Below are positions 16,382-37,170 of a stretch of 37,170 nucleotides of DNA, piece by piece. Below the pieces are notes generated by a model, which saw only the letters and a list, made by a program, of their open reading frames with translations, was not told the DNA's origin and searched no databases. Source of the DNA: a virus; the IMG/VR virus record IMGVR_UViG_3300020433_000020, positions 1-37,170 of that record. One strand, given 5' to 3'. Both the position numbers and the translations under genes were made by a program. The first letter of the stretch is position 1, and every line of letters begins with the position of its first letter.

Positions 16382-16447
16382 CGTTGTATCGGTAACAGTC
16401 CTATCGAATACACGGAGAGAGAGAACCCGAAGGAGTTAGAGCGATGA
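16376..16447 (+). CDS. Possible leader ORF, 23 aa, overlapping next start
   Basis: A 23-codon frame, beginning MPRCIGNSPIEY, fills the gap between the 1604-residue and 215-residue genes. TAGGG at 16366-16370 lies five bases upstream of its ATG. Its TGA stop (16445-16447) overlaps the downstream ATG as ATGA, the coupling arrangement used by real genes in this window. It could be a translated leader, a tiny gene, or chance. The length gives no coding statistics. Confidence 0.28.
   Translation: MPRCIGNSPIEYTERENPKELER
16430..16435 (+). promoter_or_regulatory. Ribosome binding site of the 215-aa tail gene
   Basis: AAGGAG lies eight bases before the ATG at 16444, in a purine-rich stretch that includes GAGAGAGAG, and supports that start over alternatives. 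Confidence 0.65.
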
Positions 16448-17091
16448 GTTCCACTCTACAGCGGGAAAAGATGACACGAATGAGGCAAGCTATGAAACTC
16501 GGAGCCAGCATCACCCATGCAGATCACTTCCAAATCGGAAAAGGAACCTTTCTGCTGGAAATGAAGGACGCCCGGACGGGGGAAGTGCTTGTCTCTTGGG
16601 AAAAGGACAATGTGATCACCAAGGACGGCGGTGTTTTAGCGGCGATGCTATTTCAAAACCGTGGCGGTGTTTCGCGTGGACTTTCCATGCTCGCAGTCGG
16701 TTCGGGGGCAAGAGGTTCCCTGCTCAACCCCGACGCCCCACACGTCAACCAAAGAAAGTTGAATGCCGAACTTGAGACAGGACGGAAAGGCTTTGCTTCG
16801 GTTGTGTACCGAGATGCCGAAGGTGGTGTGAGCGCGGTTCCCACAAATGTTGTCGATTTCACGACTTCATATGGCGAAGCGGAGGCAGTCGGACCCCTCA
16901 ATGAGATGGGTCTACTCTCTCCTAAATCAGATGACCCCACGGTAAAGAACCCAGTAGATGCGGAGTGGCCCACGTATGACGCAACGGTCGATCTTACGGA
17001 CAAGGATATTTTGGTCAACTACCTGACCTTCCCTGTGATCTCGAAACCGTCAACAGCGATTCTCACGATTACTTGGCGATTGACCTTCTGA
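16444..17091 (+). CDS. Small tail protein of a conserved large-phage type, 215 aa
   Basis: The sequence has the look of a compact tail structural protein found next to fibre genes in large phages: NVITKDGGVLAAMLF at ~57-71, a GSGARG turn, VVDFTTSYGEAEAVGPLNEM at ~136-155, and the end NYLTFPVISKP plus ITWRLTF. The family placement is from memory of such patterns and no family name is claimed. It is beta-rich, without signal peptide or membrane segment. AAGGAG at 16430-16435 lies eight bases before the ATG and fixes the start. It could be an adaptor between larger fibre proteins; that is inference from its size and place between the 1604- and 1155-residue genes. Confidence 0.72.
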   Translation: MSSTLQREKMTRMRQAMKLGASITHADHFQIGKGTFLLEMKDARTGEVLVSWEKDNVITKDGGVLAAMLFQNRGGVSRGLSMLAVGSGARGSLLNPDAPHVNQRKLNAELETGRKGFASVVYRDAEGGVSAVPTNVVDFTTSYGEAEAVGPLNEMGLLSPKSDDPTVKNPVDAEWPTYDATVDLTDKDILVNYLTFPVISKPSTAILTITWRLTF

Positions 17092-20100: not shown

Positions 20101-20573
20101 TTCCAGCCATCAAAAGCACTTTACACAGTGACGCGCACCCAGCCGAATGGCAGTTCTGCGCTTCGACGGTATCAACCGTTGATGACTTTGACGCCACAAC
20201 AGGCATCCTTGCTTTACACCCGTTCTTGCCGATGGATAAGACGACCGTGTTGAGCTTGGGAGACCTTGAGAACCCACCCTTTGCAGACGGCGAGTTTCGT
20301 GCGGTCTATCCGTTTGCAGACGACAACTCGTATCGACCAACAGTGTTCGCTCAAAGCCACAGCGGGGTGGTTCGACACAAGGTCTTTTATCCCGTGCTCA
20401 CGCGTTCTCTCCAAGACTCGCGACTCTTCCGTAAGGGTGAGCTTTTATTGGTCGTGTTTTCGCGGTGGGGTGAGTGTGATGACGACAACACCGTTCGTTT
20501 CACCGACTCAGACAATCAAACATGCGCGGCTGTCTACCGAACCAAAGACATGCTCATGACGGTGGGGGATTAA
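17106..20573 (+). CDS. Large tail fibre/tail-tip protein, 1155 aa, cysteine-rich
   Basis: The N-terminal FDSLVYQSGKPVLDSELN at ~26-43 resembles the opening motif of phage tail proteins of the DUF4815/DUF6519 kind ('vlyQ.GkpvlDsdlN'), thought to anchor a fibre to the baseplate. The middle and C-terminal parts are beta-rich with many acidic turns. There are about 14 cysteines, unusual for a fibre, including NCGEDCHH at 821-828, a possible metal site. The C-terminus RFTDSDNQTCAAVYRTKDML resembles a conserved ending I associate with large-phage tail proteins. A GAGGCAGGGA stretch covering the preceding stop serves as ribosome binding site. The next gene begins two bases after the stop. No hydrolase motif is seen. 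Confidence 0.7.
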   Translation: MAIHNKRFTQIGQSVSRDLPAGERSFDSLVYQSGKPVLDSELNLSPEVLAYAERLLRSAHHPSGFIRTQTAYDSIQDYEFLKPGDDDFVDNGFAIKKMIANVAGRPVVVEYSNTTKSKNIVQLDEAPINGGTNPDVKRTDFVFLEVWLAQVASSPSAEGWIQINAVDADGNHALVNGDQIQFTNAAGDAFLLEAGVDFYLEEDDGMGGTIAWNVNQVAASLQAAIDALDGFNASGTADIVYIRSTDTGEAGNGCFYEPMLLDPASGAITPHTPPVGGKCQFAGGIDTPNKPAQDKIYRHGNVLSPEDVALSDDIRDMAVAAESTQRVQLQYRIRKTGSTEAVNHKTECDGFSSPSVWAQGSGEAPVENYRFLRADGESVDPDGPTSALQYGRVDNGLWIAGNGSEESAEALGSVDGFVYALPICFVFRRNNAYVNGSGEPQKGAGFNPQHNTNGALPWNHAGLSRDVEPIGGNAIMGSIPAGESDRPDGAFSNVIEDWDVLDLRRHSLPTGADLSAELRRQIQHLLDGSYHTWAIDATSRNTLGTTSGDVSTQYLACNEIGRHKDSGATNSWSGATGFGEFIRNFDHVARRFGDQPVVERLVVEFFCDDGFDANHGKFVTKKDGTNKWYEGDTLHLNLEALNATTRQGWGDPEWANELGTVAEFMPPGTVITDILGAWHDDGNYNEAIDQHVQLASVIGVGTRSVVLELDANHQKATGGIDAAEYNVVGDVDNGDNGSPRRIFVEFEISYPMGVGLTETPDRKIYPGSDTVYPHGEMIENRYPEPDPVTGRPVGRPLEMEKPLPPKFREGFREVVVEMVANCGEDCHHEADPYTEIRDSIVSLSPNTLRPPRRVWGSFDYTVSITDSVSGDSFNAHEGTDLTDCTEYGSSSRNVRIAEGEKFSGVGQTLCDIVYYAQDPISNWGGDDEGYQVSVYYRTNAPQTCGIKEADFHTEGADSGPLPTNLKLEILAISDEVWTGQVGMGSLELGFPYVAPLDQIPAIKSTLHSDAHPAEWQFCASTVSTVDDFDATTGILALHPFLPMDKTTVLSLGDLENPPFADGEFRAVYPFADDNSYRPTVFAQSHSGVVRHKVFYPVLTRSLQDSRLFRKGELLLVVFSRWGECDDDNTVRFTDSDNQTCAAVYRTKDMLMTVGD

Positions 20574-20574
20574 G

Positions 20575-23500
20575 ATGCCACGTAAAATCGACCCAGCAAA
20601 AATCAAAGTAGGACACGGACTCGCCGCATCAGACAGCGTTGAAGTCAATGCGTTGATCCCAGGTGCAGGTCAACCGGGTTCTGTTGGTGGTGGCGGAGCT
20701 GGCTCCGCTACTCACATTCAAGATGAGCATGACGCTCACGCGGCATCGGCGGTGTCTGTAGACGACGTGCCAAAGATTTACGATGCTTCTAATGTTGAGG
20801 GTGTCCTTGACGAGTTGGCTGCACTGGTTCCACCGAGACCACCAACCATCGGTAATGCCCTTCATTACTTCCACACAACAGGAATCCCTGACTGGGGTAT
20901 TCTAAAGCTGGACGATGCATCATGGTTCGCACGAAACCCTGACCAGTTTGATCTTTCTTACGGTTGGGGTTGGGGCGGCAAAGCGACGGACCCCACAGGC
21001 GGTGTCAATCTGTATGCCGGAAAAGAGGTCTACCCCTACTTTTGGCAACCTGTATTTATCGCAGAGAACTTAGATAAGAACGCGCCTTCAAACGACCCTC
21101 AAACCGACCCTACGTTCAATGTCGCAAGCGATTCTTATGTGGGCGGCGGTGTTGGTGAGTCTCACGCCGGTCAGTTTGGGGAAAGTAATGTGACAACATT
21201 CCGAATCATCCCTACCAGCGGTCCGACAGGGGGGAAAAAGGTTGTGGTTTCAGGCGTTGTCTTCCCTGCCGATAGAGGCACGTTGGCATTGGTTCGTTTC
21301 GACAATAGCGGCGACAGCGAAGACGGCATCTTTTTTGAGGTGGTCAATCCCGAGGACTTCAAGACACAACGTGTGCTTGCCGCACTAAACTTGGGACAAG
21401 GTATTTTCGATAAGTGTGACGGCTCTCCGGGCGGTATTTTTTGGCTCGGGGATCACGGCGGTGACTGCGCGCCTCATTCTTATGATCCGTTCTCCTATCC
21501 AGGACGGGCAACAGGTCAGCTTGATCTGTATGAGATTCATACTGGCAAACGTCGGAAAAAAGACGAAGCCGATATCGATTTGCTCGCTCCGTTCTATGAC
21601 TTTGACGGCGATGGCGTCCAAGGTGCACCCGCCGCCGGTCAGGTTCGACTCGGCACGGATCCCAATGCGGGCATCCCTTTGATTCCAGATGGGATTCCTA
21701 TTTTTGGTGGCACTTCGGTCGCCAGAGGTGGTGGGCACAATCAGAACTTCTTCCGATACCGGCTCCCCTATCTTGCGGATTACAGCAAACCCCACGGTCT
21801 AAAGTGGACGCCGCCCTCGGCACTTCACCGGTATTACGATAAGCCTTCGGTGGCTTCGGATTCGGCGACACCGTTGGAAAATGCGGGTGACTACAGAGAG
21901 TTTGAGCGTGACTATTGGACTTTCCAAGTTGCACGATACCGCCACCAATTCTCGCTTCCAGATGACATTATTCTCGACCACAACGCGCGAAGTAGTGGGA
22001 CGTATGTGCTCTTCCACTTCACGAAAGAGAAATACTTTGAGGAATGTGTACGCGACAAGATCATGCCGACCAAAGACAAGTTGTATAGTGCCAACTTAGT
22101 TAAGCCCAACCCGTCTAACTATGCAAATATCGCGAACGCTCGAACTTCCTACAACGAGGCTTTAGATGGCGGTGTTCGCGAAGCGGGTAGCTACCACATT
22201 CTTCGAGCCAATGTTTACGAGGACTACCTCGGAGACAAGGACAGCGAGTTTTGCCACGTCCCCGTCCCGCCCATCGTTGACGGATCAAATCAGGTGAAGC
22301 ACGCAAAGGCTACTCTGTATATGGCCGATGATACGAGCGTAAAAATTAGTGGGGTCAGGTATTTCACGTCCGGTGATTTAGGGGATACTCGTCCCAACTT
22401 TGGTTTTACTAAGATTGATGTTCTACTCAATGAGCCGAATCATGATGACGGGATTTATGGGCTGTTTGAAACGTCTTGGTTGAGCTACGACCATCCAAGA
22501 GGTAGCAGTAGGGCGTCTTTTAACCCCGACACCAACCCAGATAGGCTGTCGCACAGAAACCCCGCACTGCTGAGCCTGTTTAGTTTTACGCAGGGCTATA
22601 GTGATGAGGATGGCGTCTCTGGCACGTATAGGTTTGCCTTAAAGCATCCAGAACAGCCGGATATTGTAAGTTCGTTGGGTCAGCGTCGCGGTCGTGTCGA
22701 GTTTTCTGCCAGACAGCTACTCAACCCTGACGACGGAAGCTCGGATTTTCCCGAGTCCGATAGGCAAGCACACTTGGAAGGTATTTGTTTCTTTTCGGGT
22801 GATGACGATCAGCCATGCTTTTCGCGTGATGCCGTTATGCGAGCATTTTTCCGACGTCCGTTGAACCACGGAAGATCCTTTCTGGATTATGCCCCGTTCT
22901 ACAACACGGGCAATAAGATTCAGGTTGAATTCGGCGGTTCTCCCGTTGAACGTGTGCTTTGGTACGGCGTGAACCACCTGTTAAATCGCAAACCAATTAG
23001 GTACAGCAACTACCAACCGTTCATGGATTTGAGCGATGATCCCGACTGTTTGATGTACAAGGTCGGTCAAGACAGAGAAGAGCGTTTCTTGGACGAAAGC
23101 TACCGTCTTCGTTCTACCTTTAGAGATAAAGACGGTAAATCACCCCTAAGCCTCCCCTATGAAGAGACGCTTAGGGGTCCGGGCTTGCCTCATGGAACAG
23201 GTTTGGTGATCACGATTCCGTCAAATGGATTTGAGTGCTGGGATTCACCATGGAGAAGCCTGCATTGGATGACATCAGATTCAAATACTCACTCATTAGC
23301 CGATAACGATAAAGGGATGGGTAACGAGCTTCAAGTAGCAGGTTGGCCCGACAGAAATCCGCCGATTCAAGACGGGATGACAACACCCGTTCTGTCTTCG
23401 GGTTGTTTGATTTACCCCAAGCATGACTACAGCACAGGCACCACACTGCCTCCGGGTCCGAACTACTCGGGCTTGAGCGGAGATCGGTGCTGGGTAAGGT

Positions 23501-23976
23501 ACTTTAACTTCCACGGGGCGGAGAGTTCTCCAAAGGTCACGATTGAGTTGGACGGCATCTCATTAGACGACCTGTTGTGGAAACCCGGTTTACCCAACCC
23601 AGGCAGCAATAAGATGGCAGTCCTCATCAAAGTCCCTGGACAAACAACGTGGATGGATATCGGACGGCGGGACGGCGACGGCCCCTCGAAACAAGATCCT
23701 TTTGCCGATGGCGCAGGCTGCATGATTGTCGGACCTGAGACAAAAGACTTAGACCCAAGCGATGTTGAGGCAACGATGCCGAATAGGTGTGTAGTGACCT
23801 GTAACTTAGGTCCCGCAGCCACGCTGTATAACAACCATGACAATATACAACAGCTTCTTATGAAAGTGGTCATCTACGAGAATGGCGCATCTTTAGATTT
23901 GGAACAGGGTGGACCAAATGGGACGCACGCAGACTTGAGGGGGCTTGTCGGTATTCGAGTCTACCCAAGGATGTGA
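20575..23976 (+). CDS. Large tail fibre-like protein with Ca-binding-type loop, 1133 aa
   Basis: Beta-rich virion protein. The N-terminus has a Gly-rich hinge (GSVGGGGAGSATHIQDEHDA, ~35-54) and ASNVEGVLDELAALVPPRPP at ~80-100, a helix often seen near the attachment end of fibre proteins. Residues 342-350 read DFDGDGVQG, the DxDxDG pattern of calcium-binding loops. The C-terminal ~190 residues hold MDIGRRDGDGPSKQDPFADG, which has the feel of a conserved jelly-roll tip. One base separates it from the preceding stop, with GGGGGA as ribosome binding site. A perfect 10-base inverted repeat lies inside the gene at 23142-23178. Function as a fibre or tail-tip subunit is inferred from context. Confidence 0.7.
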   Translation: MPRKIDPAKIKVGHGLAASDSVEVNALIPGAGQPGSVGGGGAGSATHIQDEHDAHAASAVSVDDVPKIYDASNVEGVLDELAALVPPRPPTIGNALHYFHTTGIPDWGILKLDDASWFARNPDQFDLSYGWGWGGKATDPTGGVNLYAGKEVYPYFWQPVFIAENLDKNAPSNDPQTDPTFNVASDSYVGGGVGESHAGQFGESNVTTFRIIPTSGPTGGKKVVVSGVVFPADRGTLALVRFDNSGDSEDGIFFEVVNPEDFKTQRVLAALNLGQGIFDKCDGSPGGIFWLGDHGGDCAPHSYDPFSYPGRATGQLDLYEIHTGKRRKKDEADIDLLAPFYDFDGDGVQGAPAAGQVRLGTDPNAGIPLIPDGIPIFGGTSVARGGGHNQNFFRYRLPYLADYSKPHGLKWTPPSALHRYYDKPSVASDSATPLENAGDYREFERDYWTFQVARYRHQFSLPDDIILDHNARSSGTYVLFHFTKEKYFEECVRDKIMPTKDKLYSANLVKPNPSNYANIANARTSYNEALDGGVREAGSYHILRANVYEDYLGDKDSEFCHVPVPPIVDGSNQVKHAKATLYMADDTSVKISGVRYFTSGDLGDTRPNFGFTKIDVLLNEPNHDDGIYGLFETSWLSYDHPRGSSRASFNPDTNPDRLSHRNPALLSLFSFTQGYSDEDGVSGTYRFALKHPEQPDIVSSLGQRRGRVEFSARQLLNPDDGSSDFPESDRQAHLEGICFFSGDDDQPCFSRDAVMRAFFRRPLNHGRSFLDYAPFYNTGNKIQVEFGGSPVERVLWYGVNHLLNRKPIRYSNYQPFMDLSDDPDCLMYKVGQDREERFLDESYRLRSTFRDKDGKSPLSLPYEETLRGPGLPHGTGLVITIPSNGFECWDSPWRSLHWMTSDSNTHSLADNDKGMGNELQVAGWPDRNPPIQDGMTTPVLSSGCLIYPKHDYSTGTTLPPGPNYSGLSGDRCWVRYFNFHGAESSPKVTIELDGISLDDLLWKPGLPNPGSNKMAVLIKVPGQTTWMDIGRRDGDGPSKQDPFADGAGCMIVGPETKDLDPSDVEATMPNRCVVTCNLGPAATLYNNHDNIQQLLMKVVIYENGASLDLEQGGPNGTHADLRGLVGIRVYPRM
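23142..23178. repeat. Perfect 10-base inverted repeat inside the 1133-aa gene
   Basis: ACCCCTAAGC at 23142-23151 and GCTTAGGGGT at 23169-23178 are separated by 17 bases. The arms are in coding sequence. About one such repeat is expected by chance in a window of this size, so no function is claimed. Confidence 0.5.
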
Positions 23977-23979
23977 CCA

Positions 23980-24027
23980 ATGACTTGTCTATACACCACC
24001 TTGAACAGAAGCACGGAGATTGATTGA
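23980..24027 (+). CDS. Possible leader ORF, 15 aa, overlapping start of the giant gene
   Basis: The frame MTCLYTTLNRSTEID starts four bases after the preceding stop. AAGGA at 23967-23971 lies eight bases upstream of its ATG. Its TGA (24025-24027) overlaps the ATG of the 4076-residue gene as TGATG. Translation of it would deliver ribosomes to that start. The same bases carry the element shared with 2619-2643, so nucleotide rather than peptide selection may explain them. Confidence 0.3.
   Translation: MTCLYTTLNRSTEID
23986..24010 (+). promoter_or_regulatory. Shared upstream element, copy 2 (before 4076-aa gene)
   Basis: Second copy of TGTCTATA-N5-CCTTGAACAGAA, in the 50-base gap before the giant gene, ending 16 bases before its ATG. 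It overlaps the possible 15-codon leader ORF. I did not find it in the other gaps of the window. Confidence 0.45.
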
Positions 24028-27000
24028 TGGCTACGGGCAACGACAACCTGCTACAAAGACTGAGAAAGCTGCTTGCAGAAGCAGCCGACACCTCTGATAT
24101 TCGACAGCCTTGGCAAGAGCTTTTCGCTCGCAAAGACAGCGTTCCTCCACGAGCAATTCGTGCAGCGGAAGCCGTTGAAGGCTTTATCGGTAGCTGGGCT
24201 GCGTCTCATGTTGTGGACGGTCAAATCCGACATGTCGTAGACAAAACTGTCGTTCCCAAAGCGGGTTTTGACAGTATGCTCGGAAAGCGCGGCTATCCAG
24301 AAATCAACTTTGTGCCTTACAACTGGAACACCAATGCGGGTGGAACAAACAACCCCGCACTGGTTGGTCATCCCGTTAGCTTTGAGTTCGTAGGTCCGAC
24401 GGATAAGGCTTTTCACGAAACGGGTGTGAACTTCGGTGCGAATCTCAACCGCAACTTCATCGAAATGTCCGTCGATCCCCAGGAAATTTTCGGGATCACC
24501 GACAAGGACTTGAGTACCCCACACTGGGTTTTGATTACTGATCCAGGAGACGGTCTAAAGACCAAGATTCGTGACCCAAAGATTTCCTCTTATACCCCTA
24601 CAACAGTACCGAACGGCTTCACCGAGACAAAGAAGCACCAAGGCACCGCGCGATACGAACTGTTCCGCATAATTGAGATCAGAGAGAAAAAAATCCTTTT
24701 GGATGGAGTTAAGCGGCTTGAAGACTACTTTGAGCGATGGAACTCAAATAGCAAAACGGGAAATCTCGGAAGCATTGCCATCCTTAGACCGAAGGTGGCT
24801 CGGCTTGCCCCATTGAACAATACTTGCACGCGTTGGGCGGTTCTCCCACCCGAACGCTCTGCATTGGGTGAGTACGGCTATGGCTTGGCGTACTACAACA
24901 GCATTGGTGGACTAAGAGAAGACCATAACTTGGGCTACGCCCTGCCCGTCCCGAAACCCGTCACCTTGCGAGCGTTCAAGGGTGCCGATGGCGACGAGCA
25001 GATGGATGGGCGTTGGACACCAATCGATTCGTGGGATTCTTATTTTTCCACTTCGATTGATGGGCTGCCTCAACTCGACTTAGGCGTGCCAGCTTTTGGG
25101 CGGTTCCGTATAAAGAGCAGTGTCGGAATCCACAAAATGCTTTCGGGTCGTCGGCTACGTGGAGAGGATCTTGGGATCCTGCATATCAATCAAATCCGAC
25201 CGCCAAGGAATCGGACAGAGGATGACTCCCTGTATCAGCACGTCTATTCGGTGTACTTGGGGTTCCATGAGATCGTGGACTTCGATGAAGACTATGTTGA
25301 GTGCAGACTCCCTATTGGGGTAGACGTCAACACGGGTCGTAGAACGCAGTGGGAACCGTACTTTCCCGAACTGACCCGTCTGAGCTGTTCAATCCACAAT
25401 ACAGTCCGTTCACTTTTTTCTGATGTTAGTTACAGCACGGCTTTTTACGACGATATCGAAGCCACGCGACTGACCGGTCTTATCAACCCCAATGAAGTTG
25501 GGCGTTCCATCAAGGTACACGGTACGAACGACGTGCCATTAGGGGCGTATTCTGGACGAGCCGACCGTTCGATCCCTAATACCCAATTCAACGAAGATCC
25601 GGGTTCGCTTCTGGATCTTGGCTTTCGCATGGTGTTGTTCACCGCTCGTCCGTCAAGAGGTTTTGAATCAGCACTTGTAAATCAAATCGCGGGTTCTGTA
25701 GCTGCACTCAATGACGATGGTGATTACACTGTCAATTGGGCTAACCCTATTAACTCAAATGAGATCATCCTTGATCCAAGAATCACTGATGAGCAACAGT
25801 ACGTTGATGTAGATTACGCGTCGGGGACGGTTTCGTTCTCGCACAAACCCCGCCCAGGTGGGGATATTGTCTTCAATGAAGACGGTAAGCCGATTCTTTT
25901 CGCGTCTTTCGTCCCGTACTCGATGGAGGGGGATCAGCGTGGCTCTGCCATCCGCCTGACGGGTGGGGATTTGCTATCAGCAAACTTGGGCTATCCCGTT
26001 TCGACTCAGCACGACGTTTTCTCAGAGCGCAAGCTCGGACGTTCCGCGAACTACGACCAGACTATCAGTATGGGTCAAGACCTGTATCTGGTTTACGAAG
26101 ACCGAAACACGCCGTACGCAGAGCATTGGGAGATTCCAGAAACAGGGTACTTTCAGCTAATTCAAAAAGAGGGTGACACCCCTTACAACGACACGGGAGA
26201 CCTCCTTGATCAGTACGTCAAGGCATACAGGGGTATTGAAGTCACTAATGATCCCAATGGCATCACGGTTTGCCTGAAAAACGTGACATGGCAAAATGTG
26301 CCCTCTCTGCCATTTTCACAGCCAATCATTACAATCCCTGCTCTTACTTCAATCATGTTTCGGTGTCGTCCTGACATCAACGCTGCGTTTGATACCTCAT
26401 ACGGTAGTAATGTCCGAGCAAGCACTGTTCGCTTCGCTTACGCTGATTTGAAGTACATGGAAGATGGTTCGGTGACGGTCACGCCCACTGCGGTGGCTGG
26501 ACCCGCTCAAGAACTGCGTTCGTTCTTCCCGCTCGGTGAAAACATCACCTCTCCTGAAGTGGCTCGATTCCATTTTGACGCGATGACACAGCGGTGGTCT
26601 ACCAATGACCCGCCGTGGATGGATAGCGGACACACGGAGCCACCCGGTAAGGAGCATGAGATCGGCATCGAGGTGTCTCGTGGTCGGTTGTATACCAACT
26701 GGCAGTTTGCTGCCGACGCAGACTACATGCGCGTTGGCGCAAACGTGTCCAGACTCCAATATAGCATTGGGCGTCATATTGCTCCCCCCGGTGATATTGC
26801 CATCGATATCGACTCGGCAGATGAATTCAACAACGCTGTATTTGAGTGCTTTCAAGACCTAAGCCGGATGGCACTGCTAACAGGTGTGATTGAAGGGTCT
26901 ACTATTGCCTCAAAGGTATACGAAAACATCAAGACTGACTTGGTGAACCAGGATGGGCAAACCCAACGCTTCCTGTTCATAAATAAGTCGTATGGAGATG

Positions 27001-30000
27001 ATCCCAGCCGCATTGAATTAGATGGATGTCCAGGCAACCCGCTTACGTGGATTTCTGTAACGCTGGATAAAGAAACTCCAGTGAATACGTTGGCGCAACG
27101 ACTCAATCAAGAGTGGCAGCTTGTGGCTCCCGGCGCACCTCCTGTCGCTGATATGAACAAGGAAGGCGAGCTGCTTTTGACGGGGCGTCAAATCCAAGCC
27201 GCGCCTTCATTGCCTTATCTTGCATCGGGAGAGTTGAGCTTCCCGATTACGGTCAATCCCGGCACCTATGTATCCAGTCTTGACATTCGTTCGGCAACCA
27301 ATCATTCGGTGTACGAGACCCAGACCCTTCAATTGAAGCCCGCTTGGGCGTGTATTGAACTGAGGTGGAGGGTTAACTCGGCTGAAACGTACAACACCCC
27401 CTCAGAGTATGCACAGGCTCTCAATGAGAGGCTTCTATACAACGGCACCACAGATGATTTACTGAAGCGTGCAGGGTTTCGTCCAGCACTCATCAACTCT
27501 GAAAACCCTGGCTTGCTCGCGGCGAATATCAAAGAGCTTCCCCTTGTTTTCGTAGCGAATGACGACAAACGATTCCCGTCTTCGTTGGACGGGGCTACAC
27601 AAATCGCACTTGTGTGCAGTGGTAGTGCCCGCCTTGATACGCTGGCTTCCGAAAGCATAGATCAGGATCAACTCGGGTGGGAACCATTTACCGCTCCCGC
27701 GCCAAGTGTGTTGGTGGAGCTGGACTCTCATGGCAAAGCTAATAGTGTCCACGGACTTCTCGGGAACCCCCTATCCAATAATCGCTTCGGCTTGTTTTGG
27801 GGAAATCGGTCTAACGCCACTTTCCCAAACGCTAAGCATTATCCGAAAGGGGCGGACGGCGACTGGGATAGCGTCAACTTAGGTGCGCTTGGTAATAGCG
27901 CAGAACTAATGTTTGACGTCAACGGGACTCGACCTTTGGGTCGCCTTGCGGGGTCGTTCAAGATTAGTAACGCTTTCTTCTTAGGCGATTCAGAAAAGAT
28001 TAGGCTCATTCTTGATCTTCCTACGGGGCAATCTTCTAACTGGTACAACGACCAGACCGAAGTAAGCTCGGAAGCAGACCTGTATGGAGAGAAGATCAAT
28101 CCGCGCGTCAAAGGCGAATACTCCGGTCCAAGCGAACCTTTACCGGCAAAAGTGAAATCTGGTTGGTTGGGTCGTTGGCAGTGGCCCCATCATGATATTG
28201 GCGACGTCGATAAGCCGAAAAACCTCGGTGGGATCAAACGAATCCACCTGAGCTTTGGTACGAAGACGTTTAACGAAAACGGTTTCCGCACACACTTTGG
28301 CGGCGACCCTTTCAGTTTGAACGGCTCCCACGGCGGTCAACTTGTAAAGATTAGCCCGACAGATGAGTCTCAGTGGAAACGGCCCAAGAACGTCTGGGAC
28401 GACTTCGCATACGGTGACATTGTATCAGGGTATTCCCCCAAGTATCTCCAACCCGTCATTGAGGGTCGCGTCATTGAGAAGACGCCAAAGAGAGAACTGG
28501 ACGACAACGGGTTTCCCGTTGAAGGTGACTACAGCCTGTTCGCTATCATGGGTGAGCGAAACGTCGAGACAAACAATACGGCTGCGCCGTCTGTCTACTT
28601 GAGTCAAGCGTTCAAGCATACCGGGTGGACGCAAACGAACATGCGGACCAGCGTGGTCCCCTCAGCAATTTGGGGTTCTGACGCTGCCGTGGCGCATTTG
28701 GTCAGTCAGGTTAATCCAAATGTAGAACCCACAGAAGTAGAGACGGAATTCTTTACCAGCCGTCCTAATCCAAATGCGACGTCTTCGGTTTTGATTGGTG
28801 CTGGTCGCGTTAGCATGTTGTCTACGCTTGGGGCAATCGAACCGACTGGAATCGCTTTTCACAATCTGATTCAAGACTTTTCGGCAACAGCCACGAAGCA
28901 GATCGGTCGGTCTTCTGTCTACCTTGAGTCGGGTGCGTGGACGACCACCTACCCGAATGGTGATGAGCGTGTCCCTTATTGGGGAGAAAAGAACTTTGCT
29001 CCCAGCAGTCTTGGGTCTAAAGGCAACACGACAAGTCAGTACGGCGGTGTCGGCGGCATCCGTGTCAGCGGTGATGCCCATCTGTGGGTTCAAGATATCA
29101 AACCCCTATGGTCAGATGGAGAGGCCACAGCGTTTATTGTGCCTCGCCATCCGTATCAAACTATTTCAGGAATGTTTGATCACGGTCTGATTGAAAGAAC
29201 CGGGTCGGTCATCAGTGATAACTCGAAACTGGTTGAAGTCACGGTTCTGATTGGGATGAGTCAAAGCGACATGTCCGCTTTTGAGGGCTTCATCAACACA
29301 GACAGTGCTTACTCTTTTGGTGGCTCTACTGCCGCCACGATGGGATCCAACTTATTTCCGTTCTGGAATTTCAACCCCGCTCCAAACCATCAGCAAGGCG
29401 AACGATATTTCAAGTTCGGGCAGGCTGCCGTTGCGTCTGAAACGCCTCAACTGATGCCGTCACTTGCTGGCACTCACCTTGAACTTGGCGGTATTCGCTA
29501 TAGGGTCGTCTCTTCGCCTGTAATCCAACTTGGCGGGACTTTGGCGCAGCTTGTTTATCCCGGTATTGACAGCGGTTTCAGTAGCGGCACTCCACTCTAT
29601 GCAGACACCCCATATCATGATGGGGATCGAATGTTGCCGTCCAAAGGCCGAAACCGCTTGTCTCAGTTTGCGGGTTTTGTAGCCCTGCGCGCAGAAGTGG
29701 TGATTCCTGTGTCCAGTAGCCCGCAGGAAGGTTGGAACGAGTGGGGTTTTTACGACAAGCGGTTTGGGAATGATCTTATCTACTCTGGAAAGGTGGTTGA
29801 TCCCGGTGGGTCGCCTACAGGGGTCCCCTCGTCTGTCAGGGGTCTAACGATTGACCCTCAAGTGGTAGCAGGTAAGGACAGGCTTCCAATTGAGATCATA
29901 CCGCTTACTGGTACGACCACCCGTATTGGTCCGGGTTCTCAATCACCCCCGGATCAATTCAACTTCAAGCAATCCGCAGACAATTCGAGCCAAGGTACGC

Positions 30001-33000
30001 TCACTGGCGGAGCGCACTTGCTTGGGGTGCATGATCAAATTGGATCAAGTGGTAAGCGTTTCAGTCGGGCTTTTTTCACGATCAATGATCGTACCCGTTC
30101 GGAACTCGTGGATGAAGTTTACAAAGGCGGCACCGCGCGGATTGTCGTTCTTGCAGACGAGTCCGGTTTGGTAGACAGTTTGCCGAATGGCGATGAGAGC
30201 AGTCTCAGTCCCATCGGCGGCGGTCGCTTGAATACTTATGGCTACGCACGCCGGTTGGGTCCGGGCGTCATGATGGACGGTGGTTTAGGCTTGGTTCAAG
30301 CCACGGCTTTCCGTGCAACACCCCGCAGTAGTCAAACTGAAAACTTAGGTCAGATGACCGTGTGGGGTAGAGGTGCTTATCCGTTCTACAACGGTTTGCG
30401 CCCCGCCGATATTGGCGTCGAACTGCCTTCGACCTTCAACACTGTTGAGTTCTATGGCGAAATGTCTGTGGCGAGTCCGCAAGGGCGTGTCGTGTTTGAA
30501 AGCCCGTTGGCTGCCGAAGGCATCGTTGCCAACATGTTCACAGCACAGTACGCCTCAACATTCTATATCGGCCCCTACCACTATCGCAAAAAGGGTCTAA
30601 ATACGGACACCTCCTATGAAGCCGGTGTCTTTAGAGACAGTGGTTTAGGTTTGAGCGACACCTTGTTCCCATATGTGAGCGCAGGGGTCGTCGTAAAAAC
30701 ACCGGGGACGACGGTTTACGAACGTGCTTTCCGCTCTCTTGATGCGACGGGCAGCAACCCACACCGAAAGCTGAGGGAAGGCACCCATAATCGAGGCGGG
30801 ATTCCTGGCATGGGTGTTCCGTTCAAAGGTGAAGTCTTGCTTCTCCCACAAGGCCCAACGTCAATGGGTGTTGGGTTTGCAGACTACAGGGGCGGTTCCG
30901 GTAAAACGCCGCTCGACATTCCGTTGTATGAGTTTATAAATGGCGCAACTGTTCCGCAGATCGTCGCTAAGACACTAAGACCTTACACAAAGATTGAGAG
31001 TTCGCCGTTCGGGATCAATGTTTCGGCTGTCGTGAACGGGCAGGAAAACATGTCCTACCCAAATGCGGGAGTGGGTCCTGAAAGGCACAAAGGTCAAATG
31101 GGAACCGTGTCGCAGGCGTACCGACACTCAAACAGTCGTGAGAACGATGCTGATTACGGTTGGTCTGATTCAAACGGCAGCAAGCCTGAACTTCAAGTGC
31201 GAGTGCTTGACGGCATGGTACTCGAAGACATTACCAACGGCACTTTCTACACCATCGGCTCGATTGGTCGCGACGTTCACCGTAAGAACGCCACAACACA
31301 GCTTGGAGTTATTGGCGATACTGTACGCGCACCGGTCAACGGCTCGTTGACTGCATTGGGCGGCAACCAGTACCGAGTAAATGCAGCGCAAGCGGCATGG
31401 AACGAACGCTACTTGCCCGAAGTGCTGTATGACTTCACAAGTATGGTCGATGTGACAAAGGATCCCTTTGTGGAGCCTAAAGTTGGTTTTGGTGATCGTA
31501 CAGATGACGGATACGTCCGTAGACCACTGTTCGGTCACGACATGCGGATTACTCCCAACGTAGAGTTTGTTCCTGTATTGGGTCCACGCGGTGTTCGTGG
31601 CGGGCTTCTCCCCCCTTGGTACTTCGACCTTTCAACTAAGGGTAAAGTTCTCGGTCTCGATAGCGGGATTGACGCTGACGCCTTGTTTTACGATCTTGAT
31701 CACGACTTCAAGCAAGATGACGTGGGCAAGATGCTCTACATTTGTGGAACGCACACGTATGAACATACGGGTTGGTGGGTCATCATCGGATTCGGCGCAA
31801 GCGACAAGCACGTTGCTCACGGGTTAGATTCTTCGACGGCGATTAGCAATTACGTCATGCTGCGGAAGTACAACTGGGCAGACCGTAGAGTTCCGATGAC
31901 AACCAATCCCACACCCTCTCGATACGTTCCTATCGGGAATGATCTTCGCAGCGATGATTGCTCCGGTCTTATCCCTTTGCGCTATCGCGCACCATACGTC
32001 ACGTTGGTGGCGGATAAGCGAACCAATATGGCTGACGGTCTTGGTTTCATGGGAGTAGATCACACTGGCGTGATTGAAGACGATGCTGATCTTACCTACG
32101 GCGACTTCAAGCTCGGCTTTATCCCATCTGAGGGCTTAGAAAAGGCTGTCGTTTTCATTATTGGTCGTGAAGAACTGATCGATGATGGCGTCAGGACTTT
32201 GGAATCACTGGCGAGCTTCCTCAATAAAGATCCGAGGTCGAACGGTCGGGCGTACATCAACGAACTTGCAAACGGTGCGGTTGGAAAGCTGGTCCAATGG
32301 GACGTCAAGGAAAACGTCCTTATTGGTCGATATGAGCCTAAATATCTCGGCTCCGAAACTCTAAGAAGCAAAGTGTTTTCTGGGGCAGCTTCTTTTTCAG
32401 TGTACTGGGAAAGCCGAACTGGGATCAGTGGGTCTGACCCCTTCGCGTATAGCGACGATGAGAAATCCGGTTTCATTGCCTGTTTAGGTCACAGCTTGAA
32501 CGCTGACAGAACCAGTGGCGACAGGAACAATGCGATGCCGATCCCCGCGCTGAGGGATGCAAGCCAAATCCAAAACAAGTACGCGTTCGATTACAAAGAG
32601 ACTGCGGCGCGTGGATTGCGGTGGGTCTTTTCCCATCCGTTGACTGAGGAAAACGTAGGCTCCTACATTCATTTGACGAAGCCCCATAAGTATCACTTCG
32701 GCGTGCTCCCTCCCTCACAAAATAGTGGGCTTGACGGGCGTTCTCAAGCGGTACTTGATGGGGGATGGTCAACTGCACATCAGACGCTTAGTGATTCGAT
32801 GTCATCTAAAGGCGTGTTCTTGACGACCGATATTTTCAGGATCAACCGTTGTCCAAATACTGGCAAAATGGTTATCGGCGGTGACTGCGAAGTTTACTTC
32901 ACCGAAGCCCATACGATCCCAGAAGTATCAGGAGATGCTGGAAAAGGGACAGCCATCACCTACTCTCCATTGGGTGTTCATGGCGTTTGGCAAGACACCG

Positions 33001-36000
33001 ATACAGGTGAGCTGAGCCAAGAGCATTTGAATTGGCCGACATTGTTTGAGCTTCAGCCGATTGCCCGAGAGAAAATCGTTGTGGTTTCTCCGAGCAGTGC
33101 GAAGTCCTCGCCGATGCTGACTCGTGGTCGCTCCGGTTCAGCCGGTACGCCCCTTGGTCCGCAAGGGGTCGGCCCTATGGTTGCGTCAGGCAACGTGGCT
33201 CCATCGAGACCTGAAGCCTCATTCTTAATGGATCCTTGGCAGCTTATTGCTCGACCGAATAGCACGAAGTTGTCTTTACCTGCCGATGAAAAACACGGTT
33301 GGGATGTCCAAGGCTACGATAGCCGTGTCTTGGCTAACAACGCGAATGTAAAGACCATCGAAGTGGTGGAGATTATATCGCAGCTTGAAAAGGATATTGC
33401 TGACTTAGCGGTCATGATCGCAGAAGATGAAGCCGAAAAATCAGCCCTTCAAGAGACCATCGATGATTTGAGTAGTCTCATAATTGATGATAGCAGTCCT
33501 GTCGTTCAGCTATTGAGGAAGCTGCTCTCCGCGCTTAACGTCGATCTCAATAATATTTTGGAATCAGAGATTCCCGGTGAGCTTGAAGGCGCGTCTGTTT
33601 TTACTGATGCCCTCGCCATAAGAGCAGAGAAAACGCGAAAGATCGCCGATGCTCAAAAAGCTGTTGGGGAGATGGAAGAAATCCTTTCAGCTCTCGGTGA
33701 TGAGTTAGAGACAACAGAAGACGCATTAGCGCAAACACAGAAGTATTTGGTAAATCTCATAGAACAAGAGGGCTTCCTCATTGGTGAAAAGAGTGGGGTG
33801 GAAAACGAACTCGCGAAACGCCTCGAAGATAAATCCACTATTCAAGAGGCTTACGATTCGGCATCTGGCGATTACACCGATCTGACGACCTTTTTGAGTC
33901 AGAATGCGACTGCTATTAAGGAACTGGACGAGAACTTTGACGAAGAAGCGGATTGGTACAGCGACGACGAGCAGGTCAAAAAGTTAGTCGAAGAGAGAAA
34001 GGGGATTTTTGCTCAGCTTTATGAAAAGCGGACTGAAATGTTCCAATTGAAGGAACTCCTTGAGCAAAGGTCGGATGACATAGCTGAATTGCAGGCAAAG
34101 CTGGCTGAAATAGCCCCACAGCTTGTGGAGGTAGTGAACGCTAAAGAGGTTACTCTGGCTGAGGAAAAGGAAATTAAAGCCGTGCTGGATTCACTCCAAG
34201 CGAGGCTAAATCCCATCCCTGGCGAAGTGAATGCCATGGTTGCTGAGGGTTGGGAAACATTGTTTGAGGCTGACCGTCTTGCTGAGCTGACCGCTGTAGG
34301 TGTGGATGCTTCCATGTCACCTGGTCTGAGGTCGGTTCGCGAAGCTGTAATTGATCTGCTTGGTGATGCAGGCGACGATCTCAAAATGATGTCCATAGAA
34401 TGGGCTGGGGAAGAATCCCCATTCATCAACGATAATGACGTCAACCATTGGAATCAGTACAGAACAATCTTGCAAGAGATTGAGGCGGTTGAGGAAGCTA
34501 TCGCGGTTCTTCTTGAAGCCGCCGATGTTGAACAGATTGCATCACTTGAGGGTGAATTGAGGCTGAAATCCGCGAGCGTTGATGCAAACAAAAACCGCAA
34601 GGCGAACGCCGAAGAAGAAGCGGAATTCTGGAAAGTCTACAAGATCAAGAAAGGGGCTTCTCTACCGTCAGGTGAGGAACCTGTTATTGCGGACGATGCA
34701 ACATATTCGTGGTCTCCTGCGGGAGAGTGGTGGCAGCTTTATCAGCCAGCTTGGGATCAACATGGACCCAATGCGTCTGAGCCGCCTCCAACCCTGAAGA
34801 TTGACCTTACGGAATCATTTACTCAAGCTGTTGGACCCGGTGCTGGGTTGAATACGCCATTCCCAAGTCGTTTCCCACGAGGTGTTCGACTCAATCGTAT
34901 GTGGGTAAACTTTGGTGTGTGGGGAACACCCCCTCATCTCAAAGGTGTACGGACAATGGACGAACTCCCAGGATTCGCTCCAAACGACCAACTGAATCAG
35001 TCCAAGGAAGACGTACTCAACCAGCTTTACATTAGCTTCAACCTTGTCCTTGAGATTCCTGGGTCACAAGCACGGGCTTTGGAGTTAGATACAGAGCACC
35101 CGAGAGGCTCGGGCACCGCAGCGTTCCCATTTGGAGATCGCGCCCCGACAAGCTCCTACACTCACCCGAAAAACGCTGACGACGGGGAGAGACTGCGTGC
35201 TTGGCCGGGGGGCACGATTGTCGTACCGCTTTACGTGAACCGAGAAGCTGGCGATATGATGCCTAACGTCATGGAGCGTTTTGTTACTGTTGGTCCAGAA
35301 CCGTCATACAACTCAACGTACGTTGATGGCGGAAACGACCCTAAATATAAAGACTGGTCGGGTGGGCATTATGAGCACGGTTTTGGCGCATCAGGACCAG
35401 ACCTTGATCCTAATCTTTACGACAGCAAGAGCTTGAACACGGACAGGCAACGTATGCACTGGAAGGGATATAAGTCTCCTAACTTCCACGCTCAGCTACT
35501 CGTCAACTCATTCAACCCCGTTGTTTGGGGGGGCATGGACTACTCAAACAAAAATCACAATATCGAGGCGAACTCACGAAAGGGTGTCTTTGAGGAAACC
35601 AAGTTCTCTCGCGTGCAGGCTTCGGTCTTCCCGAGGCAGTCTGTAATGAGTGGTGGGTTGCGGTCTTGCTTTACGAGTGGTTTAGTTCCCGACGGATCCG
35701 TGTTCACAGATTTCGAGCCGCAGTCGCTTTCCGCAGCGACAATGACTGGGATCACTATCGCGCACTCAGCCGCGTTCATGGCACCCCCAACGGTTGAAGC
35801 GGGTAGTCTTTCAAAGAAGAACTTGGAGGGTGGTCATAGTTGCCCCCACGCGTTCACAGTGGCACTGACGCCAGTTGGTGATGAGTACATTCCCACTGAA
35901 GATCCTATGGACCCTAAAACAGACCTCGCGGCAAGGTACGGGCGGCGTCTTGAGACGAAAAAGGGTCTTGCTCCGACAGTAGAGAACGCTCGGCAGTTCA

Positions 36001-36257
36001 AGGTCGGTAACTGGCTTGATCGCATCAAAGCCAAGTATGGAATCGCCGCACCTTCGGGATCGATGCTGCCCCCAGGATCAAGAGTCTTCTTGGAAGTCGC
36101 GGTGGGACCTGGACCCGCTGCGAAAGACCAAGACCCAGAAGCCTATTGTGCCGCTGGAACTTGGGTCGGCAGCGTCAAGCTCAGTTTCGATGTTGAGACC
36201 GTCGATGGCACAGCTTGGACAAGCGACGTAAACATTCTTGGCGATGAGGAAGGATAA
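24027..36257 (+). CDS. Giant tail protein, 4076 aa, with embedded ~430-residue coiled coil
   Basis: The largest gene of the window (12.2 kb). The first ~55 residues are helical (LLQRLRKLLAEAADTSD), a possible docking element. Residues ~60-3100 are a long beta-rich, Gly/Asn/Asp-rich region with no enzyme motif that I recognise and no clear short repeat. Residues ~3105-3545 change abruptly to a Glu/Lys/Leu/Ile/Ala-rich coiled coil (QLEKDIADLAVMIAEDEAEK through NRKANAEEEAEFW). Residues ~3550-4076 return to beta-rich sequence, ending AGTWVGSVKLSFDVETVDG. ATG at 24027 is chosen over the in-frame TTG at 24024 because GGAG at 24015-24018 is eight bases away. Candidate roles are a central or long side fibre, or a tail-tip scaffold; no tape-measure hallmarks are seen. 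Fibre-type function is inference. Confidence 0.72.
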   Translation: MATGNDNLLQRLRKLLAEAADTSDIRQPWQELFARKDSVPPRAIRAAEAVEGFIGSWAASHVVDGQIRHVVDKTVVPKAGFDSMLGKRGYPEINFVPYNWNTNAGGTNNPALVGHPVSFEFVGPTDKAFHETGVNFGANLNRNFIEMSVDPQEIFGITDKDLSTPHWVLITDPGDGLKTKIRDPKISSYTPTTVPNGFTETKKHQGTARYELFRIIEIREKKILLDGVKRLEDYFERWNSNSKTGNLGSIAILRPKVARLAPLNNTCTRWAVLPPERSALGEYGYGLAYYNSIGGLREDHNLGYALPVPKPVTLRAFKGADGDEQMDGRWTPIDSWDSYFSTSIDGLPQLDLGVPAFGRFRIKSSVGIHKMLSGRRLRGEDLGILHINQIRPPRNRTEDDSLYQHVYSVYLGFHEIVDFDEDYVECRLPIGVDVNTGRRTQWEPYFPELTRLSCSIHNTVRSLFSDVSYSTAFYDDIEATRLTGLINPNEVGRSIKVHGTNDVPLGAYSGRADRSIPNTQFNEDPGSLLDLGFRMVLFTARPSRGFESALVNQIAGSVAALNDDGDYTVNWANPINSNEIILDPRITDEQQYVDVDYASGTVSFSHKPRPGGDIVFNEDGKPILFASFVPYSMEGDQRGSAIRLTGGDLLSANLGYPVSTQHDVFSERKLGRSANYDQTISMGQDLYLVYEDRNTPYAEHWEIPETGYFQLIQKEGDTPYNDTGDLLDQYVKAYRGIEVTNDPNGITVCLKNVTWQNVPSLPFSQPIITIPALTSIMFRCRPDINAAFDTSYGSNVRASTVRFAYADLKYMEDGSVTVTPTAVAGPAQELRSFFPLGENITSPEVARFHFDAMTQRWSTNDPPWMDSGHTEPPGKEHEIGIEVSRGRLYTNWQFAADADYMRVGANVSRLQYSIGRHIAPPGDIAIDIDSADEFNNAVFECFQDLSRMALLTGVIEGSTIASKVYENIKTDLVNQDGQTQRFLFINKSYGDDPSRIELDGCPGNPLTWISVTLDKETPVNTLAQRLNQEWQLVAPGAPPVADMNKEGELLLTGRQIQAAPSLPYLASGELSFPITVNPGTYVSSLDIRSATNHSVYETQTLQLKPAWACIELRWRVNSAETYNTPSEYAQALNERLLYNGTTDDLLKRAGFRPALINSENPGLLAANIKELPLVFVANDDKRFPSSLDGATQIALVCSGSARLDTLASESIDQDQLGWEPFTAPAPSVLVELDSHGKANSVHGLLGNPLSNNRFGLFWGNRSNATFPNAKHYPKGADGDWDSVNLGALGNSAELMFDVNGTRPLGRLAGSFKISNAFFLGDSEKIRLILDLPTGQSSNWYNDQTEVSSEADLYGEKINPRVKGEYSGPSEPLPAKVKSGWLGRWQWPHHDIGDVDKPKNLGGIKRIHLSFGTKTFNENGFRTHFGGDPFSLNGSHGGQLVKISPTDESQWKRPKNVWDDFAYGDIVSGYSPKYLQPVIEGRVIEKTPKRELDDNGFPVEGDYSLFAIMGERNVETNNTAAPSVYLSQAFKHTGWTQTNMRTSVVPSAIWGSDAAVAHLVSQVNPNVEPTEVETEFFTSRPNPNATSSVLIGAGRVSMLSTLGAIEPTGIAFHNLIQDFSATATKQIGRSSVYLESGAWTTTYPNGDERVPYWGEKNFAPSSLGSKGNTTSQYGGVGGIRVSGDAHLWVQDIKPLWSDGEATAFIVPRHPYQTISGMFDHGLIERTGSVISDNSKLVEVTVLIGMSQSDMSAFEGFINTDSAYSFGGSTAATMGSNLFPFWNFNPAPNHQQGERYFKFGQAAVASETPQLMPSLAGTHLELGGIRYRVVSSPVIQLGGTLAQLVYPGIDSGFSSGTPLYADTPYHDGDRMLPSKGRNRLSQFAGFVALRAEVVIPVSSSPQEGWNEWGFYDKRFGNDLIYSGKVVDPGGSPTGVPSSVRGLTIDPQVVAGKDRLPIEIIPLTGTTTRIGPGSQSPPDQFNFKQSADNSSQGTLTGGAHLLGVHDQIGSSGKRFSRAFFTINDRTRSELVDEVYKGGTARIVVLADESGLVDSLPNGDESSLSPIGGGRLNTYGYARRLGPGVMMDGGLGLVQATAFRATPRSSQTENLGQMTVWGRGAYPFYNGLRPADIGVELPSTFNTVEFYGEMSVASPQGRVVFESPLAAEGIVANMFTAQYASTFYIGPYHYRKKGLNTDTSYEAGVFRDSGLGLSDTLFPYVSAGVVVKTPGTTVYERAFRSLDATGSNPHRKLREGTHNRGGIPGMGVPFKGEVLLLPQGPTSMGVGFADYRGGSGKTPLDIPLYEFINGATVPQIVAKTLRPYTKIESSPFGINVSAVVNGQENMSYPNAGVGPERHKGQMGTVSQAYRHSNSRENDADYGWSDSNGSKPELQVRVLDGMVLEDITNGTFYTIGSIGRDVHRKNATTQLGVIGDTVRAPVNGSLTALGGNQYRVNAAQAAWNERYLPEVLYDFTSMVDVTKDPFVEPKVGFGDRTDDGYVRRPLFGHDMRITPNVEFVPVLGPRGVRGGLLPPWYFDLSTKGKVLGLDSGIDADALFYDLDHDFKQDDVGKMLYICGTHTYEHTGWWVIIGFGASDKHVAHGLDSSTAISNYVMLRKYNWADRRVPMTTNPTPSRYVPIGNDLRSDDCSGLIPLRYRAPYVTLVADKRTNMADGLGFMGVDHTGVIEDDADLTYGDFKLGFIPSEGLEKAVVFIIGREELIDDGVRTLESLASFLNKDPRSNGRAYINELANGAVGKLVQWDVKENVLIGRYEPKYLGSETLRSKVFSGAASFSVYWESRTGISGSDPFAYSDDEKSGFIACLGHSLNADRTSGDRNNAMPIPALRDASQIQNKYAFDYKETAARGLRWVFSHPLTEENVGSYIHLTKPHKYHFGVLPPSQNSGLDGRSQAVLDGGWSTAHQTLSDSMSSKGVFLTTDIFRINRCPNTGKMVIGGDCEVYFTEAHTIPEVSGDAGKGTAITYSPLGVHGVWQDTDTGELSQEHLNWPTLFELQPIAREKIVVVSPSSAKSSPMLTRGRSGSAGTPLGPQGVGPMVASGNVAPSRPEASFLMDPWQLIARPNSTKLSLPADEKHGWDVQGYDSRVLANNANVKTIEVVEIISQLEKDIADLAVMIAEDEAEKSALQETIDDLSSLIIDDSSPVVQLLRKLLSALNVDLNNILESEIPGELEGASVFTDALAIRAEKTRKIADAQKAVGEMEEILSALGDELETTEDALAQTQKYLVNLIEQEGFLIGEKSGVENELAKRLEDKSTIQEAYDSASGDYTDLTTFLSQNATAIKELDENFDEEADWYSDDEQVKKLVEERKGIFAQLYEKRTEMFQLKELLEQRSDDIAELQAKLAEIAPQLVEVVNAKEVTLAEEKEIKAVLDSLQARLNPIPGEVNAMVAEGWETLFEADRLAELTAVGVDASMSPGLRSVREAVIDLLGDAGDDLKMMSIEWAGEESPFINDNDVNHWNQYRTILQEIEAVEEAIAVLLEAADVEQIASLEGELRLKSASVDANKNRKANAEEEAEFWKVYKIKKGASLPSGEEPVIADDATYSWSPAGEWWQLYQPAWDQHGPNASEPPPTLKIDLTESFTQAVGPGAGLNTPFPSRFPRGVRLNRMWVNFGVWGTPPHLKGVRTMDELPGFAPNDQLNQSKEDVLNQLYISFNLVLEIPGSQARALELDTEHPRGSGTAAFPFGDRAPTSSYTHPKNADDGERLRAWPGGTIVVPLYVNREAGDMMPNVMERFVTVGPEPSYNSTYVDGGNDPKYKDWSGGHYEHGFGASGPDLDPNLYDSKSLNTDRQRMHWKGYKSPNFHAQLLVNSFNPVVWGGMDYSNKNHNIEANSRKGVFEETKFSRVQASVFPRQSVMSGGLRSCFTSGLVPDGSVFTDFEPQSLSAATMTGITIAHSAAFMAPPTVEAGSLSKKNLEGGHSCPHAFTVALTPVGDEYIPTEDPMDPKTDLAARYGRRLETKKGLAPTVENARQFKVGNWLDRIKAKYGIAAPSGSMLPPGSRVFLEVAVGPGPAAKDQDPEAYCAAGTWVGSVKLSFDVETVDGTAWTSDVNILGDEEG

Positions 36258-36259
36258 CC

Positions 36260-36733
36260 ATGAGCAGTAAGACAGTATCTCAACTCGCCAAGAGCGTCGC
36301 CAAACGAGCGCGAGACGAAGCAAAAGCTAAGGGTGTGAAACACGTTCTTGTAAGGCATCATGCGCGACGGGTTGCTTCACGGGTGTTGATCTCGAAGAAA
36401 GCCCCCGACAACTTGATTGCCGAGTGTCAGTATTGGACAAAAGAGCTTGGACGTAAGCTCAAGGCACAAACCAGCTTGAGCTTTACCCGACAAGGCGGTT
36501 GCCAAATCAGCTTCACCGAAGATTGGGGCGGCTACTCCATCGAGGCACACGAAATCGGAAACGTCATCGTGTGGTCTTCGGGTCGAGACAAGGCGGCAAA
36601 CCTGCCTCGCGAGATCGAGAAACTGGCTCAGAAATCCAAGCGCGGAGCGATGGCTCTCTACCGCGAAAACTCTCCGAGTGTGAGTGCGCGAGAGGTAGCA
36701 TATAGGTGGGCGTCGAAGGAGGGCTGCAAATGA
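36260..36733 (+). CDS. Small basic protein, 157 aa, unknown function
   Basis: Not recognised. The N-terminal ~50 residues are strongly basic and helical (SVAKRARDEAKAKGVKHVLV, then HHARRVASRVLISKK). A short beta part follows (GGCQISFTEDWGGYSIEAHE), then a basic C-terminal helix pair (LPREIEKLAQKSKRGAMAL, VAYRWASKEGCK). The composition differs from its acidic, beta-rich neighbours and would fit a nucleic-acid-binding, chaperone or assembly protein; there is no evidence to choose. GAGGAAGGA at 36246-36254, overlapping the end of the giant gene, is a strong ribosome binding site. Its TGA stop overlaps the ATG of the following gene (ATGA). Confidence 0.7.
   Translation: MSSKTVSQLAKSVAKRARDEAKAKGVKHVLVRHHARRVASRVLISKKAPDNLIAECQYWTKELGRKLKAQTSLSFTRQGGCQISFTEDWGGYSIEAHEIGNVIVWSSGRDKAANLPREIEKLAQKSKRGAMALYRENSPSVSAREVAYRWASKEGCK
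36716..36723 (+). promoter_or_regulatory. Strong ribosome binding site for the last, partial gene
   Basis: AAGGAGGG, nearly the full anti-16S complement, lies six bases before the ATG at 36730. It settles the start of a gene whose end is outside the window. Confidence 0.75.
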
Positions 36734-37170
36734 AAGTCATCGTAAACCACACAGACAATAAGCTCATCGAAGTCGGCAAATCCCCTGAGATTGGAGAACA
36801 CATGTTCGTCAACGGGCGTTATTTGCTGCCTGTTCCTGAAGGCTCTGATCTCGACATTGAGAAAGGTGCGAAGGTCGTATCGGACGATGGCTCTTTCGGT
36901 GCTGACTCTCTCGTACATCAAGCCTTTGAGGGCTTACTCGCTCAATATCCCATGTACAGCCACGTCATCTACAACCCGAACATTCTCGCTAAGGACGTAG
37001 AGGATTACGACGTTGACGCGGGCATGACAGAGGTTGGTCCTCCGATGGTTTCACACACGTCGAGAGCGCAAATCGGAAGGTATCCAGGACCCCAAGCAGG
37101 CAACGCTGCGGGATCAACGCTTGTGCTTCCACAAAACAACCATGTGGACCCGGCTCGGCCCGGACTACTT
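36730..37170 (+). CDS. Probable virion protein, partial (3' end outside window)
   Basis: The frame is open from this ATG to the window end (147 codons, no stop). The start is well supported: AAGGAGGG at 36716-36723 is six bases upstream, and the ATG overlaps the preceding stop as ATGA. The visible part begins MKVIVNHTDNKLIEVG, continues with LVHQAFEGLLAQYPMYSHVI at ~62-81, and ends in a Pro/Gly-rich piece (YPGPQAGNAAGSTLVLPQNN, RPGLL) that resembles extended linkers in tail proteins. No family is claimed. The position after the fibre block suggests a tail or virion component. Confidence 0.72.
   Translation, partial: MKVIVNHTDNKLIEVGKSPEIGEHMFVNGRYLLPVPEGSDLDIEKGAKVVSDDGSFGADSLVHQAFEGLLAQYPMYSHVIYNPNILAKDVEDYDVDAGMTEVGPPMVSHTSRAQIGRYPGPQAGNAAGSTLVLPQNNHVDPARPGLL

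Follow-up and report, generated by a model that had tools for sequence, protein, structure and literature searches.

A giant protein encoded beside baseplate genes in huge phages, with a conserved N-terminal module and exchangeable C-terminal parts, is probably a tail fibre or tailspike

The window analysed here, a viral fragment record of 37,170 bp, contains one frame that encodes a 4,076-aa protein, raising the question of whether so large a gene is genuine and, if so, what its product does. The frame is open on the plus strand from 24024 (TTG) or 24027 (ATG) to the stop at 36257, and its length of 4,076 aa is counted from the ATG, which is directly preceded by CACGGAG. At the base composition of the window, 4,076 stop-free codons have a chance probability of ~e^-188, and each of the other five frames is interrupted by a stop after 167 codons at most. 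Scanning of viral contigs with the window protein, and then with growing alignments, located ten full-length relatives, each a single open frame (2,954, 3,412, 3,789, 4,204, 4,225, 4,234, 4,249, 4,296, 4,346 and 5,090 aa) with 28-44% identity to the window protein over aligned residues. An extra giant gene is split across both contig ends of a 289,014-bp record (L023, L036); it exits one end and resumes in frame at the other, the leftover bases making up one codon, which suggests that this contig is a complete circular genome. Because the full-length single-frame relatives come from separate assemblies, a fused-gene assembly error is excluded and, despite the unusual size, the joining of several genes into one by assembly or annotation has a negligible probability. 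The uninterrupted 12.2-kb frame of 4,076 residues described in an earlier, sequence-only reading is thus genuine, and neither outcome that the reading had named against itself, an assembly fusion or a close full-length homologue with a solved role, was found. Its remark that the gene fills a third of the window is true of the window, but the window is a fragment; the 12.6-kb gene of a 275,102-bp relative makes up about 4.6% of that record.

Residues 1 to about 820 are common to all family members, whatever their C-terminal part. This N-terminal module (residues 1-822; 24027..26492, plus strand), defined by alignment A9 and HMM matches and proposed to be a virion anchor, occurs in a single copy per record in the records tested. 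It closes in giant, short and medium members alike with a junction motif, YGSxxRxxxLRFxxAxxxxxDGSVTVxP (residues 791-822; 26397..26492, plus strand), located by motif listing and BLASTP endpoints. In the loci of relatives, the giant's profile matches much shorter proteins at the same position, behind the same baseplate genes. The matches to these non-giant relatives cover window residues 1 to about 820-880 only, and their full-length frames give family-HMM E-values of 1e-113 or better. BLASTP similarity between the window protein and non-giant members ends at residues 818-823 in 12/12 comparisons, and past the first tens of columns after the junction no profile similarity was detected between tails of different classes. 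Where giant-class regions occur without the anchor, the frame is always truncated by the end of its locus or contig.

A scan with the 1,155-aa neighbour described below found 232 relatives, of which the best 80 were kept (contigs up to 618,736 bp), and a scan with alignment A9 gave 57 loci. The frames recovered in these pattern-seeded scans of one viral collection, in which class counts are not frequencies, fall into size groups of about 1,000 aa; 1,085-1,189 aa, ending in a tail of ~300 aa; 1,474-1,518 aa, with tails of other kinds; 1,703-2,212 aa, whose tails match one another and are parallel beta-helix-like; and, in the giants, 2,954-5,090 aa. A repeated N-rich pattern is visible in the beta-helix-like tails, and the NosD parallel beta-helix family (PF05048) matches above its cut-off in one of them (L102) and below it in other medium-size members, whereas the window protein itself has no such match.

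Giants have in common a middle region and two conserved regions, gc1 and gc2. The middle region (residues 823-2449; 26493..31373, plus strand), delimited by an occupancy table and with no PDB match to its profile, is the most variable part between giants and is largely missing or replaced in the 2,954-aa member. Region gc1 (residues 2450-3080; 31374..33266, plus strand) is defined by sequence conservation and includes the motifs PNVEFVPVLG, EENVGSYIHLTK, DIFRINRCP and LQPIAREKIV. Region gc2 (residues 3545-4076; 34659..36254, plus strand), with the motifs NREAGDMMPNVMERFVTVGP, FKVGNWLD and VETVDGTAWTSDVN, is among the best conserved parts, with 81-96% identity in its last bin between close relatives whose overall identity is ~60-65%. 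Self-BLASTP detected no internal repeats in the window protein, none emerged at profile level (top probability 1.2% across 171 non-overlapping profile chunk pairs), and the giant gene contains a single degenerate 30-nt DNA repeat pair (two copies, 77%). The protein is thus without obvious short repeats and mostly non-repetitive, as had been claimed.

Giants do not form one group in either the anchor tree (5 label changes, at least 4 of them forced by well-supported branches) or the neighbour-gene tree (5 label changes, with L062 scored as 'none' though a short copy exists there, masked by an antisense ORF), so tail class has changed repeatedly. Within the giants, separate trees for the anchor, the middle region and the C-terminal part show broad agreement and no strong conflict, and the trees are unrooted; the pattern is therefore explained equally well by giant tails having been transferred and by an early giant tail having been replaced repeatedly.

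The gene lies in a tail and baseplate cluster, all on the plus strand. Upstream are genes for a gp25-like baseplate protein (2656..3738; PHROG 975 baseplate protein, E 7e-10), a gp6/J-like baseplate wedge protein (3738..7226; PHROG 6, E 7e-32, with tblastn matches to LR745208, Tunturi_5 and phage G), a 215-aa conserved cluster protein related to phage G gp190 (16444..17091; PHROG 5417), a 1,155-aa tail-associated protein that is a conserved upstream neighbour (17106..20573; local matches to phage G gp211 and a Tunturi_5 'tail fiber protein') and, immediately before the giant, a 1,133-aa protein conserved in the locus comparison (20575..23976). Downstream are a 157-aa ORF (36260..36733), found only in the window and one relative (L027) among the loci compared, and the start of a ~250-285-aa gene (36730..37170) that comes next after the giant in several other members. 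The giant directly follows a gene of the 1,133-aa type in nearly all giants, as do its counterparts in short and medium members, and baseplate gene order is common to the window, its relatives and the huge phage LR745208. No shared ancestry of the giant with its 1,155- and 1,133-aa neighbours was found by profile comparison.

In annotated collections, the cluster has its closest relatives in LR745208.1, an uncultured phage record of 485 kb in the size class of the huge phages of Al-Shayeb et al. 2020, to which we presume it is linked, followed by Tunturi_5 and phage G. Most of the upstream baseplate and tail cluster occurs in LR745208.1 in the same order, with 29-55% identity for several genes, but the giant gene is missing there. 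Bacillus phage G and Tunturiibacter phage Tunturi_5 encode distant relatives of the gp6/J-like, gp25-like and 1,155-aa proteins, but neither genome has an anchor copy anywhere. Of 14 related or reference records that were searched, 13 lack the gene, and the wider group can therefore do without it.

Searches of PHROGs, Pfam and NCBIfam assigned the window protein to no enzyme or other family, in agreement with the earlier report of no enzyme motif, and profiles of all its parts had no match in the PDB. No confident match to annotated phages was obtained; tblastn of both protein halves against 50,697 phage records returned no relative, nor did the short member L125 match phage records, and two scans of genome contigs were likewise negative. 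Two Enterococcus phage matches (E ~1e-3) are located in the coiled coil described below and were taken as chance. AlphaFold2 models had a mean pLDDT of 56 for the N-terminal 790 residues and 42 for the C-terminal region of L028. With these poor models Foldseek found nothing at E <= 0.001, and the top VIA-align hit, a phage tail tube (Z 6.5 over 83 residues), is within the tool's stated noise; given the low pLDDT, we claim no fold. The models consist mostly of strands, so the earlier 'beta-rich' description has some backing, albeit weak at such confidence.

Taken with the neighbourhood, these features suggest that the giant is probably a baseplate-attached tail fibre or tailspike, of receptor-binding type, in a huge phage whose baseplate is of contractile type. 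This reading is based on the conserved N-terminal module, the sharp junction, the interchangeable C-terminal parts (some beta-helix-like) and the adjacent baseplate genes. Location in a tail and baseplate cluster and a conserved N-terminal module joined to unrelated C-terminal parts are what is expected of fibres and tailspikes, and the conserved baseplate neighbourhood together with the anchor-plus-exchangeable-tail architecture of the relatives gives good support to the earlier label of tail protein. Residues 1 to about 820 would dock the protein to the virion, and residues past the junction motif would form the outward-reaching part. Phages of the group would retain the dock and swap what follows the junction. 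In the class of the window, the outer part would be a ~3,250-residue non-repetitive extension consisting of the variable middle, gc1 and gc2; in the window's own sublineage, a coiled-coil insert lies between gc1 and gc2. We infer that the protein is part of the virion, that its N terminus docks it there and that the remainder contacts the host, and likewise any oligomeric state.

Three observations are at odds with a fibre or tailspike. No family, PDB or fold match links the protein to a known fibre or spike, although the models are poor; for subunits of T4-type long tail fibres (gp34/gp37), the giant has no PHROG, Pfam or PDB match at sequence-profile level, and a distant similarity of fold to them may exist. 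The gene is missing from most of the related or reference records, as noted above. Finally, the C-terminal region, which is the fast-evolving tip in many fibres, is here among the best conserved parts. A fast-evolving distal tip is common in fibres but no strict requirement, and the conserved C terminus would argue against a simple variable receptor tip. A tentative possibility is that the giant extension represents a new type of appendage among huge phages, a fibre of several thousand residues without repeats, in which the conserved C-terminal regions would not be a receptor tip but would serve as a fixed platform for docking or contact, the whole unit replacing ordinary spike parts.

The conservation of the C-terminal regions is also what a structural tail appendage would predict. 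Under such a scheme, which we consider unlikely, the giant would serve as a shaft, collar or branching platform, with other fibres held by its conserved C terminus, and host contact would be left to neighbours such as the 1,155-aa or ~1,800-aa proteins. Several other very large proteins are encoded in the same cluster, and branched fibres are known in jumbo phages, for example phiKp24 (PMC13282480). However, the same N-terminal module bears spike-typical beta-helix-like tails in relatives, and whole-tail exchange is expected of host-range parts. Very improbable is a protein that is carried in or released from the virion and acts on the host cell, forming no permanent appendage: its great size, lack of a recognised fold and conserved C-terminal regions without assigned function would fit, but there is no match to an enzymatic or toxin family, and an anchor with an exchangeable tail in a baseplate context better fits a surface appendage.

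The one feature that recalls a tape measure, besides size, is a coiled coil at residues about 3095-3540 (33309..34646, plus strand), detected by heptad scan and by weak SMC/Rad50 matches. The only NCBIfam signal in the window protein is of this SMC/Rad50 type (3109-3408), and among full-length giants the insert is present only in the window and L027. The earlier denial of a tape-measure-like helical body is therefore wrong for ~10% of the protein. A tape-measure protein would have a mostly helical body, whereas here the helical stretch takes up only ~450 residues out of 4,076 and is missing from most relatives; moreover, the family varies from about 1,000 to 5,090 aa by whole-tail replacement, with which tail length would vary wildly. 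A tape-measure or other tail-core function is accordingly disfavoured to the point of being scarcely credible.

Returning to the fibre or tailspike reading, modular proteins of this type, with a conserved N-terminal structural module and an exchangeable C-terminal part, are described for Klebsiella phages (PMC8262889) and for E. coli tailspikes (PMC10408124). The giant family resembles them in its conserved N-terminal module, in the sharp junction that follows, in C-terminal parts that can be exchanged and are in some cases beta-helix-like, and in the adjacent baseplate genes. Unlike them, its ~820-aa N-terminal module matches no anchor in the libraries searched, and its C-terminal part in the window class is ~3,250 aa long, non-repetitive and without a known fold, with a conserved end. 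The sequence comparisons thus point to a family of modular fibre or spike proteins that appears new, built on an overall plan (conserved anchor, replaceable C-terminal part) that is standard for phage receptor-binding proteins. The earlier suggestion that the architecture may be new stands for the family, which is absent from the databases searched, but not for this plan. A limited literature search found no description of the family, and a paper on a jumbo-phage lineage (PMC12619734) appears not to describe the giant gene. For huge phages, Al-Shayeb et al. 2020 (PMC7162821) report predicted proteins as long as 7,694 aa, some of them tentatively considered structural, and the available portion of that paper does not describe the giant family or its modules.

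The family provides the adsorption machinery of huge phages with a defined set of proteins that is in none of the libraries searched. Its recognisable anchor and junction motif would allow fibres and spikes to be picked out in contigs of up to 618 kb. In the family, one presumed attachment module carries outer parts that range in length from a few hundred residues to ~4,200. The classes thus form a natural series in which one can ask what makes fibres of such size worth their cost to some huge phages and which bacteria are recognised by each class.

We note several further features of the compared loci. Two window genes, 7226-8752 (508 aa) and 11554-16368 (1,604 aa), correspond to a single fused 1,763-aa gene in LR745208.1, which also has a 3,642-aa open frame near its tail cluster (L051:8287-19215) that does not match the giant family profile. 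On the 84,412-bp contig of L028, the gp6/J-like alignment (72113-75538, minus strand) spans two in-frame TGA codons, which may reflect a sequencing error, an interruption or recoding. In the 275,102-bp record of L007, an open frame of 1,603 aa has a Phage_sheath_1 match below threshold (162328-162696, minus strand), the sole match in a Pfam sheath search; it may encode an enlarged tail sheath protein. The gene before the 5,090-aa giant (L006:2287-9888) encodes 2,533 aa, about twice the usual size. The 1,155-aa window protein (17106-20573) has a local region (about 34-40% identity over ~150-210 aa) and an N-terminal-proximal DSELNL motif in common with the ~1,700-2,100-aa protein encoded downstream of the giant in relatives (L007:23343-28703), and the two are possibly paralogous tail proteins.
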